Assembly (NCBI RefSeq): GCF_027604915.1
Contig: NZ_JAJAQC010000016.1
Location: forward strand, 1 to 64,000
Source: Streptomonospora mangrovi
GTDB taxonomy: Bacteria > Actinomycetota > Actinomycetes > Streptosporangiales > Streptosporangiaceae
Direction: 5' to 3'
DNA length: 64,000 bases
Position 1 is the stretch's first letter. Each line of letters opens with the position of its first letter. A model generated the notes under the pieces. It was not told the DNA's origin, searched no databases, and was given only the letters and a program-made list of their open reading frames with translations. A program made the translations under genes and the position numbers. Shown here piece by piece: positions 17,445 to 24,479 of this stretch.

Positions 17445-17909
17445 TCAGGCGGAGCCGGACGGCTCCAGGTGGGCGGTGAGGAAGGCCCGCTCGTCGCCGC
17501 TGAGGCGCCGGGGCGCCTGCTTGGCGGTGTCGTAGCCGACGAGCACGCTCATGGCGCGGGCGTAGACGTGGTCGTCGTCGCGAATCTCATAGGCCAGGCG
17601 GAAGCTGGCGGTGCGGACCTCGGTCACCCACGTCTCGACCCGCACGGGGTCGCGGCGGAGCAGGATCGGCTTGAGGTAGTCGATCTCGTGCCGGGCCACG
17701 ACCAGCCCGCCCAGCCGGGTGTGCGACTCCGCGGGGACGTCCCACCGCAGGAACGCGATGCGGGCGTCCTCAAGGTAGGTGAGCATCCGGACGTTGTTGA
17801 CGTGGTTGAGCGGATCCAGGTCGGCGAACCGCACGTGCGCCCAGTAGACGTGCCGCCCCGACTCCCGCCCCTGCACCCGGGCGCCCTCGGCCGTGGTGAC
17901 TGCCTCCAC
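17445..17909 (-). CDS. acyl-CoA thioesterase (4HBT hot-dog fold)
   Basis: A 154-aa single hot-dog domain. The 4HBT hallmark VRFADLDPLNHVNNVRMLTYLEDARIAFL contains the catalytic-type aspartate (DLDPLNHVNN). IDYLKPILLRRDPVRVETWV and SFRLAYEIRD complete the fold. It should hydrolyse an acyl-CoA or related thioester in the cytoplasm; the chain length is unknown. The GTG start follows a GAAGGGGAGGGG stretch. Confidence 0.88.
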   Translation of the reverse strand: MEAVTTAEGARVQGRESGRHVYWAHVRFADLDPLNHVNNVRMLTYLEDARIAFLRWDVPAESHTRLGGLVVARHEIDYLKPILLRRDPVRVETWVTEVRTASFRLAYEIRDDDHVYARAMSVLVGYDTAKQAPRRLSGDERAFLTAHLEPSGSA

Positions 17910-18037
17910 CTGGAACCCCTCCCCTTCACAACGCGGACGGCACCACGCTACCGGCCGCGCCCCGAACGGGGTTCGGGAAGCCCAGGCCCAACGGAGCGAC
18001 CCCGCTCACACCGGGAGCGACGGGCCCGGCGGCGGGG

Positions 18038-18511
18038 TCAGTTCTCGTCGGCCTTCGCGACGGCTTCGGCCTCCAGTGCGGCGGCGAGCCGGCGGCGCAG
18101 CCAGTCGGGTGTGGAGTCACTGTCCCGGGGATAGGCGCGGGAGTCCACGAGGAAATCGTAGTCGTGAGCCGGGATTGAGAATGAGGGTTCCTCGTCGTGG
18201 CTGTAGTGAACCGTGAACCGCCCCGGGCGGGTAAGGATGTAGACAGCCTTGAACCACGTGCCCTTGCCCGGTGAGTACATCCCGTCCCGCAACTCCGTCA
18301 TCTTCGCGATGGCAGCGGGCGGCGTTGACACTGACGTTGACTGTTCGTCGTCCAGCACGGCGGTCGTCTTCGTGGAACAGAAGTCCAGCAATGCGTCGCA
18401 GCGCAAAGTGACCTTGTTCCAGTTCCGCGGCGCTGCTTTGGCTAGAGCCCGGCCGACCTCGCGGAGGATGGCCTCCTGCTGCGCGGGAGTGAGGCGACCA
18501 CGGGCGCTCAT
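18038..18511 (-). CDS. YezG-like immunity protein, copy 3 (distal to toxin)
   Basis: A 157-aa acidic protein, the last of three tandem paralogues downstream of the nuclease toxin. REVGRALAKAAPRNWNKVTLRC at the N terminus, GRFTVHYSHDEEPSF in the middle and LVDSRAYPRDSDSTPDWLRRRL at the end recall the YezG/DUF600 immunity fold, which in Bacillus protects against a toxin with the same nuclease domain. That family call is inference from pattern. It ends in ALEAEAVAKADEN. Start ATG with AGGTAG upstream, as in the other two copies. Confidence 0.8.
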   Translation of the reverse strand: MSARGRLTPAQQEAILREVGRALAKAAPRNWNKVTLRCDALLDFCSTKTTAVLDDEQSTSVSTPPAAIAKMTELRDGMYSPGKGTWFKAVYILTRPGRFTVHYSHDEEPSFSIPAHDYDFLVDSRAYPRDSDSTPDWLRRRLAAALEAEAVAKADEN

Positions 18512-18541
18512 GGGGCTACCTGTCTTATGAACGGGGCGCAG

Positions 18542-19015
18542 TCAATGGTCATTGTCCTTCGCGACGGCCTCGGCCTCCAGCGCGGCGGCGAGCCGTCGGC
18601 GCAGCCAGCCGGGGGTGGCGTCGCTGTCCCTCGGGTACGCGCGCGAGTCCACGAGGAAGTCGTAGTCGTTGACCGGTATAGAAAACGAGGGCTCGTCGGT
18701 GTAGTTGTAGTCGATTGTGTACCGCCCTGGTTGCATGACCCGGTAGATCGCTGTGTACCAGGTGCCTTTGCCCGGCGTGTACATACCAGTTCGGAGCCGT
18801 CCCATCTTCACCGCTGCCTCGGTGGGGACGGACACGCTCGTTGAGGTGCCGTCGTCCAGCACAGCAGTGGCCTCGGTGGACCGGAACTCGACAAGTGCGT
18901 CACAGCGCAAGGTCACCTCGCTCCAGTTCCGCGGCGCGGCCTTGGCGAGTGCTTGTCCGATCTCGCGGAGTAGGGATTCTTGCTGTGACGGAGTGAGGCG
19001 GTCGCGGGCACTCAT
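18542..19015 (-). CDS. YezG-like immunity protein, copy 2
   Basis: 157 aa, the same length as both neighbours and alignable without gaps: REIGQALAKAAPRNWSEVTLRC, PGKGTWYTAIYRVMQPGRYTI, LVDSRAYPRDSDATPGWLRRRL. Differences cluster in the middle third (ATAVLDDGTSTSVSVPTEAAV, GRYTIDYNYTDEPSFSI), the region likely to contact a toxin. The 30-nt spacers before and after it are near identical, so the copies arose by tandem duplication. It is probably cotranscribed with the toxin. Confidence 0.8.
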   Translation of the reverse strand: MSARDRLTPSQQESLLREIGQALAKAAPRNWSEVTLRCDALVEFRSTEATAVLDDGTSTSVSVPTEAAVKMGRLRTGMYTPGKGTWYTAIYRVMQPGRYTIDYNYTDEPSFSIPVNDYDFLVDSRAYPRDSDATPGWLRRRLAAALEAEAVAKDNDH

Positions 19016-19045
19016 GGGGCTACCTGTCTTATAAACGGGTCGCGG

Positions 19046-19519
19046 TCATTTGTCGTTGGCCTTCGCGACGGCCTCGGCTTCCAAAGCGGCGGCGAGTCGA
19101 CGGCGTAGCCAGTCGGGTGTGGACGCGCTGTCCCGGGGATAGGCGCGGGAATCCCTGAGGAAGTCGTGGTCGTAAGCCGGGATCGGGAACGAGGGTTCTT
19201 CGTCGTAGCTGTAGTGAGCCTTGAACCGACCTGGGCGTGTAACCCTGCAGACCGCTCTGTACCACGTTCCCTTGCCAGGTGTGTACATTCCGGCCCGCAA
19301 CTTCCCAAGCTTGACCGCGACTTCAACAGGAGTGGACATCTGTTCCGTACTGCCATCATCCAAAACGGCGGTGGCCTCCGTGGTACTGAAATCGAACAGG
19401 GCGTCACACTCCAATCTCAATTCTTCCCAGTTTCGCGGCGCCGCTTTTACCAGGGCGCGGCCAATCTCACGAAGCAGGGAGTTCTGCTGCGCGGAGGTGA
19501 GGTGGTCGTGGTGTCTCAT
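19046..19519 (-). CDS. YezG-like immunity protein, copy 1 (adjacent to toxin)
   Basis: 157 aa, and the most divergent of the three: it starts MRHHDHLTSAQQNSLLREIG and has PSFPIPAYDHDFLRDSRAYP. Its base composition is noticeably less GC-rich than the chromosome average. As the gene next to the toxin (26 nt apart) it is the best candidate for the cognate immunity partner. The two distal copies may be paralogous spares or guard against related toxins of competitors. Confidence 0.8.
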   Translation of the reverse strand: MRHHDHLTSAQQNSLLREIGRALVKAAPRNWEELRLECDALFDFSTTEATAVLDDGSTEQMSTPVEVAVKLGKLRAGMYTPGKGTWYRAVCRVTRPGRFKAHYSYDEEPSFPIPAYDHDFLRDSRAYPRDSASTPDWLRRRLAAALEAEAVAKANDK

Positions 19520-19543
19520 GGGGCTACCTGCTCTTACGGGCGT

Positions 19544-22132
19544 TCACTGCCAGTTCGGAATATTTGGGTACCTAAGAGGGCGGGGGTACCTGACTCCGTT
19601 GACCTCCCACTCTACGAAAATATCGGTGGGCGGGGGATGCAGCACTCTTCCGTTTGGAGCGGTCAGCGTCGGCATGTTTGGATCGTACACATTGGTGATA
19701 CGGACCTTGATCTCCGGCTTCGGATCCTGGCGCAGGAGGCGGACCCACTCCTCCTCAAGCCTGCGGAAACTGCCGTCGATACCGGGCAGGTGCGTCCGCT
19801 TCTGGTTGACCGTCTCCAGCATCGGGACCACATTGAGGCGTTCCCCACCACCGCCGAACTCGCTGGCGCCCGCCATGTGCCCGCCGTTCCACTCGACGTC
19901 CTCGTAGAGCGGAAGCTCGCCGGGGTTGGGCGGGCGCCCGTGCCTGGCCGTGAACTGCTCGGTGAGGTACTCGTTGTAGACCCGGTAGTAGTCGCGGCCC
20001 TCCCAGCCGATGGCCCGCTGCTGGGTGTCGTTGCGGGCATTGCTGTCCAGTTCAAGGACGCCCTCCATTGACTCCGTTCGGCCCAGGTGATCGGTGCGGT
20101 AGGTGTACCGGTCGTCGACTACGTAGGTGGCGTTCGGCCGGGGGTTCGTCAGTTCGGGGTTCTGCGCGCTGTCTCGATCCGTACGCGTGTGGACCTCGAT
20201 GACCTCGCCCTTGTCGTTGGTGATAAACACCTCGGCGTGGCCGTTCTCGTAGTCGGCGTCACTCGCGTGGTTCTCCCGATAGTCCCGCAGTTCGTAGCGG
20301 GTGTTCGGGTCGAGTCGGCCGCTGTCGCCGAAGCGCTTTCCCTCCTCCGGCCACAGGGGACTGTCTGGGTCGAGCCTTTCCAGCGCGGGCGGCCGAGGTG
20401 GGGCGTCCTCACCCTCTTCGCCGTCCCCGCTGCCATCGTCGTCAGGGAGGTCGAAGTCGACCTCGGCGTCCTCGTTCCGTTCGTCCTCAGGAGACCCATT
20501 CGGGTCCTCCTGGGCCGGGTTCGCCCGGTCTGCCGGGTCGCCCTCGGGAGCGCCCTCCGGGCGCTGCCCCTCGGGGATGTCGGGTTCCTCGTCCGGTAGG
20601 CCGGGATCGTCGTCCCCCGGGCCGCCGGAACCGTCTCTGCCGCCGGTCCCGCCCCCGCCTCCGCCGGACGGGTCGGGACTCGCGACCGTCTCCGACCCCG
20701 AACCGGTCCGGGTGCCGCCGGACGGCGGCGGGTCGGTCGGGGTGGTGGTGGGTGGGCGGGTGGGGGAGTCCGAGGGGGTCGGGGTGGACGAGGGCGGGGT
20801 GTCGGGGCCGTCGGCGTTGGCCTCGATGTCGGGGGCGCCCACCAGTGCGGGTTGGCGGCGCCAGCCGGCGGCCTCCTCCAGGGCGGCCTCCAGGCCGATC
20901 TCGTCGGCGCGGATGTCCAGCACCTCGTTGATGCGCTGCTGGAGTTCGCTCGTGGTGGGGGCGTCCTGGCCGTTGATCCGGCTCAGGTCGAACTCCGTGC
21001 CGGTGCGGGTGAACTCCGGGCCGTCCCCGCCGCTGCCGTCGCCGTTGCGACCGGGTCCCAGGTCGCCGAGATTGCCCAGGGTGCGCACGATCCGCGTGCC
21101 CCGCCAGGCCATCAGCGGGACGCCCACGATCGCCCCGGCACCGGTGGCGGTCAGGGCCGCGCCGCCCACGATGCTGCCGATGTTGACGAGTCCCTGGGTG
21201 ATCACGTAACCCGGCCGGTCGTCCCACTCCCGCCACGGGACCATGGAGTGGGCGATCTCCGTCCATGCAGTGCGGGCCGTGGAGAGGCTCCACTCGCCGT
21301 CGTGGTAGCCCGCGAGCATTCCGACACCGGCCAGCGTGTCGCCCCAGGCGGTGGTGGCGTTGTCCCACATGGTCCCGGGATCGATCGTCCAGTCGCCCTG
21401 GCCGTCGTGGAAGCCGAACATCCCCAGGGTGTCCTGCACCGAGCCCCAGGTCAGGTCCACCAGCGCCGAGCCGACGTCCTCGTACCAGGGGGCGTCGTGC
21501 TCCTGGGGGACCGCCCAGGGAGTGGCGACGTCCTCGGGAGGGCGGGTGTAGCCGTAGGCGACCTCGTTGCGGCCCAGGTTGGGTTGGGAGTCGGGGTCGG
21601 TGGCGACGAACCGGGTGCCGCCGAACAGGGCGGTGATGGCGTTGGCGCAGGTGCGCTCGGCGGCCATGAAGTCGTTCTGGACCTTGATCAGGTCGTTGTT
21701 GAGGGTGCTGAGCTCCTCGACCTTGTCCTCGTCCTTGCGCCAGTCGTCATTGCCGTCGATGTGAGCCTGCATGGCGACGGCGTCGGCCTTGAGGCGGTGC
21801 CAGCGCTCCAGGATGGGGCGCACTTCGGCGGCGAACTGGATGAGGGCGTCGCCGGCGGCGGTGGCCGCGTCGTCGATCTCCCCGCCCCAGGTGGGGACCT
21901 CGTCCACGGCGCTCAGCAGGGTGTCGGCTTCGGGCGCGGAGTAGATGCCGCTGAGGCCGTTCCACCCGGTCTTGATGTCGTCGCCGATCTCGGCGATGTC
22001 GCCGCCGGTGCCCTTGAGGGCGCGCCCGGCCTCTTCGACGTCGTCGGGCTGCACCGGGGGAATCGCGATCGCGGAAGGGTCGATTCCGTCCGAAAGACCC
22101 GGGGGAAGGTCGTCCTCGCCCATTCCTGTCAC
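19544..22132 (-). CDS. WXG/T7SS-type polymorphic toxin with C-terminal NucA-like nuclease domain
   Basis: An 862-aa modular toxin. Residues 1-200 are a helical WXG-type secretion region (DIKTGWNGLSGIYSAPEADTLL), the marker of type VII (ESX) export in actinobacteria. A hydrophobic stretch lies near residues 315-350 (GLVNIGSIVGGAALTATGAGA). Residues about 430-610 are a Pro/Gly/Asp-rich linker. The last 190 residues match the DNA/RNA non-specific endonuclease NS_2 pattern: YTYRTDHLGRTESMEG, then GGHMAGASEFGGGGERLNVVP (histidine near residue 750), then a basic tail. The acidic residue of the usual DxGH is Asn here (WNGGH). It is followed by three immunity genes. It should act as an antibacterial nuclease in target cells. 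Confidence 0.85.
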   Translation of the reverse strand: MTGMGEDDLPPGLSDGIDPSAIAIPPVQPDDVEEAGRALKGTGGDIAEIGDDIKTGWNGLSGIYSAPEADTLLSAVDEVPTWGGEIDDAATAAGDALIQFAAEVRPILERWHRLKADAVAMQAHIDGNDDWRKDEDKVEELSTLNNDLIKVQNDFMAAERTCANAITALFGGTRFVATDPDSQPNLGRNEVAYGYTRPPEDVATPWAVPQEHDAPWYEDVGSALVDLTWGSVQDTLGMFGFHDGQGDWTIDPGTMWDNATTAWGDTLAGVGMLAGYHDGEWSLSTARTAWTEIAHSMVPWREWDDRPGYVITQGLVNIGSIVGGAALTATGAGAIVGVPLMAWRGTRIVRTLGNLGDLGPGRNGDGSGGDGPEFTRTGTEFDLSRINGQDAPTTSELQQRINEVLDIRADEIGLEAALEEAAGWRRQPALVGAPDIEANADGPDTPPSSTPTPSDSPTRPPTTTPTDPPPSGGTRTGSGSETVASPDPSGGGGGGTGGRDGSGGPGDDDPGLPDEEPDIPEGQRPEGAPEGDPADRANPAQEDPNGSPEDERNEDAEVDFDLPDDDGSGDGEEGEDAPPRPPALERLDPDSPLWPEEGKRFGDSGRLDPNTRYELRDYRENHASDADYENGHAEVFITNDKGEVIEVHTRTDRDSAQNPELTNPRPNATYVVDDRYTYRTDHLGRTESMEGVLELDSNARNDTQQRAIGWEGRDYYRVYNEYLTEQFTARHGRPPNPGELPLYEDVEWNGGHMAGASEFGGGGERLNVVPMLETVNQKRTHLPGIDGSFRRLEEEWVRLLRQDPKPEIKVRITNVYDPNMPTLTAPNGRVLHPPPTDIFVEWEVNGVRYPRPLRYPNIPNWQ

Positions 22133-22294
22133 CTCGTCGGCGTTTCACCCAGAGTGGAACGCCAGACACTTTAGCGACGCTTTGCTTGTACTGAAGGGTG
22201 ATTTGACCTGTTTGTGACTGGTGGTAATTCGGGCCGGACCGAAAAACGAATCCGCCCTGCGGAGTTCTCGCATGTAACAGGCGAAAAAGACAAC

Positions 22295-22351
22295 GCGGCG
22301 GGCGCCGGTGCCGTGACCGGGAGTGGTCACGGCGAAACCGGCGCCCGCCGC
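22295..22351 (-). terminator. strong rho-independent terminator of the prolyl oligopeptidase gene
   Basis: GCGGCGGGCGCCGGT (22295-22309) pairs perfectly with ACCGGCGCCCGCCGC (22337-22351). Inside it GCCGTGACC pairs with GGTCACGGC. Read on the minus strand the hairpin is followed by GTTGTCTTTTTCGCC, a true U tract. The rest of the 22133-22382 gap is relatively AT-rich and should hold the toxin promoter. Confidence 0.85.
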
Positions 22352-22382
22352 ATTGCGTCGCCGACCGCCTCGGGGCGGCCGG

Positions 22383-24479
22383 TCAGTCCTCCGCCACCTC
22401 CAGGCCGGTGTGGTGGGCCAGGAACGCCAGTTGGTCGGCGCTCAGCCGGACCGTGCGGCTGACCGACCGGGCGCTGTGGCCGACCTCCGCCTCGCGGCGC
22501 AGCAGGACGGGGCGCTCCCGCACCGGGGCCGGGGTGGCGTGCTGCATGGCCGCGCACATCTTGCGGGCGTGCAGGGGGTCGACCCGGGTGTCGTTGTCGA
22601 AAACCGTGAAGAGCGTCGCCGGGTAGCGCACACCCTCACGCACGTTGTGGTACGGCGAGTACGCCAGGAGCCACCCCAGCGCCTCAGGATCCTCGGCGCT
22701 GCCGTACTCCACGTTCCACAGTTCGCCCAGCCCGAACCGCTCGTAGCGCACCATGTCCAGCAGCGGTGCCGAGCACACGGCCGCCGCGAACAGGTCGGGC
22801 CGCTGCGTGATCACCGCGCCCACCAGCAGGCCGCCGTTGCTGCCGCCCATCACCGCCAGTCGCCCGGGCGTGGTGCGGCCGGTGGCCACCAGGTGCTCGG
22901 CCGCCGCGACGCAGTCGTCGAACACGTTCTGCTTGTCGCCCAGCATCCCGCCGCGGTGCCACTCCTCGCCCTCCTCCAGGCCGCCGCGCAGGTTGGCCAC
23001 CGCGTAGACGCCGCCCGAGCGCACCCAGGCCAGCGCGGTCGCGGAGTAGTCGGGCGTCATCGAGATCGAGAACCCGCCGTAGCCGTAGAGGATGGCCGGG
23101 CGCGGCCGGACCTCCCCGGGGGGCGACACCACCAGCATCCGCACCGGCGTGCCGTCGCGCGAGGTGAAGGTGACCTGCTCGGTGCGCACCTCGGGCACCT
23201 CCGGCGCGCCCGGCGCCGACGCCCACAGCGCCACCTCGCCCGTGCGGGCGTCGTAGCGGTACACCGCCCCCGGTGTGGTGCTGTCGCTGTAGCGGAACCA
23301 CGCCTCGTGGCCGCCCTCGGGGCGCGCCGCCACCCCGCCGATCGAGCCGATGCCGGGCATCTCCACCGAGCCCGTGCGCCGGCCGTCCGCCAGCGCGTGC
23401 ACGCTGACCTCGCTCACGGCGTGGCGCCGCCACGACACAAGCAGCCGGGGCTCGGCCAGTCCGGGGCCGTCCAGCACGGCGTAGCCGCCGAACACCGCGT
23501 CGGGGTCGGCCGCCACCAGCGTGGTCCAGTGCTCGTAGCCGGGCGTGCGCGGGTCGGCCACGCACAGCCGCCCGCGCGGGGCGTCGCGGTCGGTCACCAG
23601 GTACAGCCGGCCGTCGCGCCCCACGTGCGGGGCGACCTCGGCGTCCACGCCCTCCTGCACGACGCTGAAGCGGGGCCGCTCCGGCCCCGACTCCGCCAGG
23701 TCGGCGATCCAGGCGTCGTTGCGCGAGGAGGTGCCCTTGGTGGCGGTGAGCACCAGCCACCGGCCGTCGCGGCTGACCCCCACCCCGTAGTACTCGGTCT
23801 TGTCGCGGCCCTCGCCGAACACCAGCACGTCGTCGTCGGGCGAGGTGCCCACCCGGTGCAGGTAGACCCGCCGGTGGTACTGCTCCTCGCCCTCGGGCAC
23901 CGCGCCGGGCGCCAGCCGGCGCACGTAGTAGAACGCCTCGCCGCCGGGCAGCCAGGCCACCGGGGAGTAGCGGCAGCGGTCGATGGGGCCGTCCACCACC
24001 TCGCCGGTGGCGATGTCCATGACCCGCAGCAGCGACTCCTCGTCGCCGCCCTCGGAGACCTGGTAGGCCAGCAGCCGCCCCTCGTGGTCGGGCCGCCAGG
24101 AGTCCAGGGTGGTGCCGCCGGTGGGGTCGAGCGCCACCGGGTCGATCAGCGGGCGCTCGACGCCGCCGGGCTCGGCCAGGTAGAGCACCCCGTGCTCCTG
24201 CTCGGGCGCACGCCGCATGAACAGGTACCGCTCGCCCCGCCACACCGGCACCTGGACCGTGCCGGCGCCCAGCAGCGCCTGGACCCGCCGGCCCAGCTCC
24301 TCGCGCCCGCTCCAGCGCGCCGACTCCTCCGCGAACAGCGTGTCCTGGGCGTCGGACCACTCCTTGGTCCGGGGCGAGCGCGGGTCCTCCAGCCAGCGGT
24401 AGGGGTCGTCGACCAGGTGGCCGTGCAGGTCCTCCCGGCAGTGCACGCGCTCGGCGGCGGGGTAGCGAGGTTCAGGCAT
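22383..24479 (-). CDS. prolyl oligopeptidase, S9A family
   Basis: A 698-aa cytoplasmic-looking serine peptidase without signal peptide, cleaving short peptides after proline. The N terminus (YRWLEDPRSPRTKEWSDAQ) is typical of S9A and leads into a seven-bladed propeller. The C-terminal hydrolase domain has the nucleophile Ser547 in GGSNGG, the acid in FDNDTRVDPLHARK and the histidine in EVGHSARS. The length is standard. It is a single-gene unit ended by the hairpin at 22295-22351. Confidence 0.93.
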   Translation of the reverse strand: MPEPRYPAAERVHCREDLHGHLVDDPYRWLEDPRSPRTKEWSDAQDTLFAEESARWSGREELGRRVQALLGAGTVQVPVWRGERYLFMRRAPEQEHGVLYLAEPGGVERPLIDPVALDPTGGTTLDSWRPDHEGRLLAYQVSEGGDEESLLRVMDIATGEVVDGPIDRCRYSPVAWLPGGEAFYYVRRLAPGAVPEGEEQYHRRVYLHRVGTSPDDDVLVFGEGRDKTEYYGVGVSRDGRWLVLTATKGTSSRNDAWIADLAESGPERPRFSVVQEGVDAEVAPHVGRDGRLYLVTDRDAPRGRLCVADPRTPGYEHWTTLVAADPDAVFGGYAVLDGPGLAEPRLLVSWRRHAVSEVSVHALADGRRTGSVEMPGIGSIGGVAARPEGGHEAWFRYSDSTTPGAVYRYDARTGEVALWASAPGAPEVPEVRTEQVTFTSRDGTPVRMLVVSPPGEVRPRPAILYGYGGFSISMTPDYSATALAWVRSGGVYAVANLRGGLEEGEEWHRGGMLGDKQNVFDDCVAAAEHLVATGRTTPGRLAVMGGSNGGLLVGAVITQRPDLFAAAVCSAPLLDMVRYERFGLGELWNVEYGSAEDPEALGWLLAYSPYHNVREGVRYPATLFTVFDNDTRVDPLHARKMCAAMQHATPAPVRERPVLLRREAEVGHSARSVSRTVRLSADQLAFLAHHTGLEVAED

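Follow-up and report, generated by a model that had tools for sequence, protein, structure and literature searches.

The YeeF–YezG pair of Bacillus subtilis consists of a nuclease toxin and a DUF600 immunity protein with one immunity gene, and both YeeF and EsaD are LXG toxins. In EsaD–EsaG of Staphylococcus aureus, EsaG divides the nuclease into two portions and the metal finger becomes disordered; there, helix C′ of EsaG contacts the C-terminal nuclease fragment (PMC9616950, which also names YeeF–YezG). Strings of esaG genes have alike spacers and recombine through conserved blocks (Garrett et al. 2022, PMC9484751). The survey of Zhang et al. 2012 (PMC3482391) pairs Tox-NucA nucleases with Imm36 (DUF600) and WXG-type type VII secretion systems (T7SS), Actinobacteria included; Imm36 is counted there among the prominent homogeneous polyimmunity loci, with a predicted BH3703-like fold and two conserved Trp, and polyimmunity loci are distinguished there from regular toxin loci. 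Here we describe a locus of Streptomonospora mangrovi that is likely to be a polymorphic toxin operon of T7SS type in which a few paralogous immunity genes, i1, i2 and i3, follow one another in a string. It lies within the window, the whole stretch of 64,000 nucleotides (nt) analysed (contig NZ_JAJAQC010000016.1, positions 1 to 64,000), and comprises the following features, with protein lengths in amino acids (aa).

19544..22132, minus strand: toxin gene, 862 aa, listed with a GTG start; N terminus like that of T7SS substrates, middle rich in Pro and Gly, and C-terminal nuclease
21581..22132, minus strand: N-terminal 184 aa of the toxin, with W57-x-G59; helical model, pLDDT 82.8
19676..20137, minus strand: Endonuclea_NS_2 (PF13930) nuclease region by Pfam, matched in two stretches (19994-20137 and 19676-19894)
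19877-19879 and 19805-19807, minus strand: codons of H752 and N776 of the toxin nuclease
19046..19519, minus strand: i1, 157 aa, probably the cognate immunity gene, of DUF600/YezG-like type; shares 84% identity with the only copy in the nearest relative, genome G003 of the same genus
19016..19045, minus strand: spacer between i1 and i2, 30 nt, repeated before i3
18542..19015, minus strand: i2, 157 aa, paralogue of i1 and 68% identical to it
18512..18541, minus strand: spacer between i2 and i3, 30 nt, near-identical to the spacer between i1 and i2
18038..18511, minus strand: i3, 157 aa, paralogue of i1 and 66% identical to it

Like YeeF–YezG, the locus pairs a nuclease toxin with a DUF600 immunity protein, but it has three immunity genes where that pair has one. 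As in EsaD–EsaG, a NucA/His-Me nuclease toxin is followed by a probable cognate DUF600 gene and non-identical further copies (PMC9484751, PMC9616950), whereas the host here is a high-GC actinomycete with EccB, sequence identity is low, and the toxin N terminus is WXG/PPE-like rather than LXG-annotated. The esaG strings (PMC9484751) also resemble the locus in having spacers alike in length and sequence and in recombining, as the window copies seem to do, through conserved blocks; those strings reach up to twelve copies, in contrast to three in the window. The Tox-NucA/Imm36 loci, listed for Actinobacteria and WXG-type T7SS, have the same nuclease class, DUF600 and homogeneous polyimmunity (PMC3482391); unlike the polyimmunity loci of that paper, the string here directly adjoins a complete toxin gene.

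All four open reading frames (ORFs) lie on the minus strand, with the starts of i1, i2 and i3 exactly 504 base pairs (bp) apart. Two families of direct repeats (262 nt and 180 nt, three copies each) recur at start-to-start distances of 504 and 504, a spacing that is not due to chance, and the protein alignment of i1, i2 and i3 is ungapped. The ORF list, the repeats and the alignment thus bear out the earlier note on this DNA, which had reported three 157-aa paralogues 504 bp apart with repeated spacers and no indels; such equal spacing is the expected outcome of tandem duplication without indels. The i1 start follows the stop codon of the toxin gene after 24 nt, a leader shorter than the 30-nt spacers and similar to them. 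Terminator-like sites number 3 against 2.5 expected, and none falls between the toxin, i1, i2 and i3, so that the four genes are likely to form one operon; a promoter scan, made without a pattern for actinomycete promoters, found none.

The C terminus of the toxin is, as judged from sequence, an Endonuclea_NS_2/NucA nuclease, as the earlier note had proposed for the 862-aa protein. It matches PF13930 at 51.5 bits (cut-off 27, E 1.5e-13), its best PDB sequence match is the EssD/EsaD nuclease domain, and H752 and N776 align with H528 and N551 of EsaD, the catalytic His and metal-binding Asn, so that both positions expected of a Tox-NucA member are kept. PHROGs has no family for the toxin. A PF13930 search of the same genome returned this toxin as the sole match, and a second home NucA toxin, considered as an explanation of i2 and i3, was therefore not found by that search.

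The N-terminal motif is W57-N-G59, which the structure model puts where one long helix ends, consistent with the WXG-type N terminus noted previously. The W of W-x-G is invariant in all 11 aligned toxins, and the same N terminus is present at five places of the genome. T7SS substrates make up 11 of the 12 top Foldseek rows for this model, though none is a significant match. The Pfam WXG100 domain is not matched in the window toxin and is weakly matched in 3 of the 11 N termini; a profile of the N terminus gave 13 matches among PDB sequences (best E 0.08), none a T7SS protein by name, and the LXG family has no Pfam match in the toxin or the 11 N termini, an absence that is weak evidence. Encoded on contig C64 of the same genome is EccB (E 4.6e-89), the sole T7SS component searched for and one that belongs to the actinobacterial type of this system. 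The toxin is predicted to be secreted.

The 157-aa proteins are divergent DUF600 relatives that share the fold without being PF04634 hits, and the earlier description of them as YezG/DUF600-like holds for the fold and falls short of the Pfam YezG-like cut-off for each protein taken singly. Structure prediction, a check suggested in the earlier note, yielded for i1 a model whose sole significant fold matches are the DUF600 proteins EsaG and BH3703. The link to the family also runs through intermediate relatives: PF04634 recognizes 32 of the 67 relatives aligned (E<=0.01, best 4.2e-8), and TIGR01741 recognizes 22 of 43 (E<=0.1). W86 and W137 are invariant in 67 sequences, agreeing in number with the two conserved Trp of Imm36. 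No PHROGs family was found for i1, i2 or i3. An unrelated family for these proteins, or a toxin C terminus lacking a nuclease fold, had been named beforehand as observations that would overturn the reading; neither was seen, the nuclease being judged from sequence matches. The gene next to the toxin, i1, is the probable cognate immunity gene.

The window copies are old tandem duplicates under purifying selection. Together with the G003 copy they form one clade (support 100/99) with weak inner branches (95/2 and 80/67); synonymous divergence (dS) is 0.47 for i1–G003 and 0.82-1.45 among the window copies, and omega is 0.15-0.28 across the six pairs of i1, i2, i3 and G003. These pairwise values give no support to the idea that positive selection caused the divergence in the middle of the genes. 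The claim that divergence is concentrated in the middle third stands at the amino-acid level for all three pairs (differences by thirds 0.33/0.40/0.23 for i1–i2, 0.40/0.44/0.17 for i1–i3 and 0.25/0.42/0.21 for i2–i3), but the clearer pattern is the conserved last third, which is also seen at third codon positions for i1–i2 and i1–i3. Third-position differences are uneven and lowest in the last third for i1–i2 (p 0.008), i1–i3 (p 0.0006) and G003–i3 (p 0.002), not significantly uneven for G003–i2 (p 0.08) or i2–i3 (p 0.28), and flat for the control pair i1–G003 (p 0.92; permutation tests, uncorrected for multiple tests). Among informative sites, 29 of 45 group i1 with G003 and are clustered in the centre (p 0.02). 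There are thus signs of exchange between copies at the gene ends, and the data fit a duplication before the split from G003, followed by loss in G003 or by gain of diverged copies in the window.

Dosage alone, with the extra copies raising the amount of immunity protein against one home toxin and having no specificity of their own, would suit a genome in which this toxin is the only PF13930 match, and copies that appear to belong to one operon, closely spaced and lacking terminator-like sites in between. Recent amplification, however, would leave near-identical copies, whereas these differ at ~30% of residues and, given their dS, are old, which makes this explanation unlikely.

Flanked by genes for a prolyl-oligopeptidase-like protein and a thioesterase (window 17445-24479), the toxin locus is a lineage-specific insertion. 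G003 has the same neighbours, the toxin and a single immunity copy, whose identity is 84% with i1, 70% with i2 and 71% with i3; in three of the six genus genomes (G001, G004 and G005) the flanking-gene matches are 125-134 bp apart with nothing inserted, and G002 has other genes, by eye including an AraC-like regulator. The site therefore takes varying inserts, and the comparison of copy number across relatives proposed in the earlier note gives, at this site, three in the window, one in G003 and none in G001, G004 and G005. The GC content of the toxin end and immunity genes is 0.605-0.65, against 0.727 for the toxin middle and 0.733 for the window, as an imported module would have. This contrast would also suit an origin of i2 and i3 as immunity genes of earlier, swapped-out toxin ends that are now drifting, and at another locus a second nuclease domain, in pieces (L043:8946-9434) and resembling a toxin end that has been displaced, lies between the second and third immunity copies. 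Such an origin is nevertheless doubtful: i2 and i3 are intact, with omega of 0.15-0.28 against each other and i1, the well-supported clade of i1-i3 and G003 argues against different source families, and nothing of a toxin was noticed in the 30-nt spacers that separate the window copies.

One-protein searches found relatives of the immunity proteins in 3 of the 6 genomes of the genus and in 146 of 341 family genomes, which represent 20 of 68 genera and have up to 11 matches each. Named relatives include Actinorugispora, Actinomadura, Nocardiopsis and Streptomonospora; tblastn of i2 in plasmids gave no match. Two Mycobacterium abscessus prophage records (MW584169 and MW584207) contain tblastn matches to i2 with 25-28% identity, annotated as hypothetical. 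We scanned 45 loci, namely the window and picks from the best matches, which give no prevalence estimate. Immunity copies lie within 600 bp on one strand at 18 of these loci, and a nuclease match is present at 19. Among the 45, only the window has three intact copies within 600 bp (L050 has three, one partial), and, with three tandem same-strand copies of one clade separated by 30-nt spacers, it has the make-up of a polyimmunity string. The gap between domain edges is 37-85 nt in 20 of 22 nuclease domains with a same-strand downstream relative (duplicates included), and the distances between nucleases rise with those between their first immunity copies (correlation r 0.74, p 2e-4, n=17 after removal of duplicates and one distant case; genome relatedness uncorrected). 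With six loci, setting the nuclease against the first and against the second copy gave no information. Toxin frames are split within both nuclease domains at L040 (~5790 and ~17150) and in the N-terminal part at L009 of G003 (~11170), by sequencing error or damage.

Other arrangements of the domain also occur. Two DUF600-like domains, 490-535 nt apart, share one open frame at L051, L053, L057, L058 and L062, and the same kind of frame is found at L092, L094-L098, L101, L103 and L105 (some being the same places as the first set); these relatives, labelled mostly Nocardiopsis, are like polyimmunity proteins. Four ORFs (L075:6530-8545, L059:2306-4564, L073:8266-9666 and L079:2585-4063) carry a DUF600-like domain, detected by our own profile and without PF04634 in Pfam, together with TNT (PF14021, E 2e-12 to 2e-30) at the C terminus. 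A further such fusion was seen by eye at L079:6551-8014, and in L079 a unit of one TNT fusion and two DUF600-like genes occurs twice head to tail. Upstream of a toxin that has the N terminus of the window toxin, another C terminus and then an ORF of ~165-185 codons is a DUF600-like gene in the window's own genome (L008:4725-5183) and in G003 (L011:9620-10078). Taken together, the tandem copies, fused double domains, occurrence upstream of toxins that end differently and association with TNT domains raise the idea that in this group of actinomycetes the domain is a modular toxin-handling unit rather than just a NucA inhibitor, from which it would follow that i1, i2 and i3 may deal with several kinds of toxin; we regard this as quite improbable. 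That DUF600 proteins are adaptors or chaperones for toxin export, instead of or besides immunity, is very unlikely: the L008 and L011 arrangements, with their other downstream genes, and the four TNT fusions would suit such a role, but the nuclease that precedes the window genes is of the kind inhibited by EsaG, whose fold their products share.

Under the preferred reading, a toxin operon with a string of paralogous immunity genes, the toxin would leave the cell via the T7SS of this genome and cut the DNA of competitors; i2 and i3 would be kept as neutralizers of variant NucA toxins of relatives, and recombination between copies would keep the ends alike while the middle stays diverged. Neutralization of the toxin by i1-i3 is a proposal. 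The end of EsaG helix C′ (from residue 77) aligns with i1 helix 65-77, which falls within codons 41-80, where the amino-acid sequences of i2 and i3 diverge most; this gives reason to suspect, and is not proof of, differences in specificity. Several points weigh against this reading. Taken singly, i1, i2 and i3 score 14.1, 13.6 and 12.7 bits against PF04634 (YezG-like), below the cut-off of 21.7, and have no NCBIfam family. The VIA fit of i1 to EsaG spans residues 7-112, the whole-chain Foldseek root-mean-square deviation is 10-11 Å (TM 0.43-0.54), and in the model the C-terminal part of i1 may pack differently from EsaG. For the toxin N terminus, no Foldseek match reaches significance (best E 0.07) and BAR domains score as high by VIA. 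The i2–i3 pair has no significant end homogenization, the other permutation results are likewise uncorrected, the grouping of i1 with G003 in the protein tree is the weak 95/2 branch, and nuclease and immunity-copy distances do not correlate across six two-copy loci. The evolutionary reading of the earlier note, diversification or amplification, is partly supported: omega and the third-position pattern fit an old duplication with exchange at the ends, tandem copies recur in relatives, and immunity diversification against different toxins is plausible.

A NucA toxin, DUF600/Imm36 immunity, tandem polyimmunity and recombination between paralogues are all already in print, and the window is a tidy actinomycete example of them; our literature search found no paper on this locus, nor on YezG with Nocardiopsis, which is not proof of absence. 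The end-exchange pattern of esaG and tipC strings is suggested to occur in a high-GC actinomycete too. The combination of an indel-free triplet, a single-copy syntenic relative and empty sites within the genus would make it possible to test directly, outside Firmicutes, whether the paralogues of a DUF600 tandem neutralize different NucA toxins.
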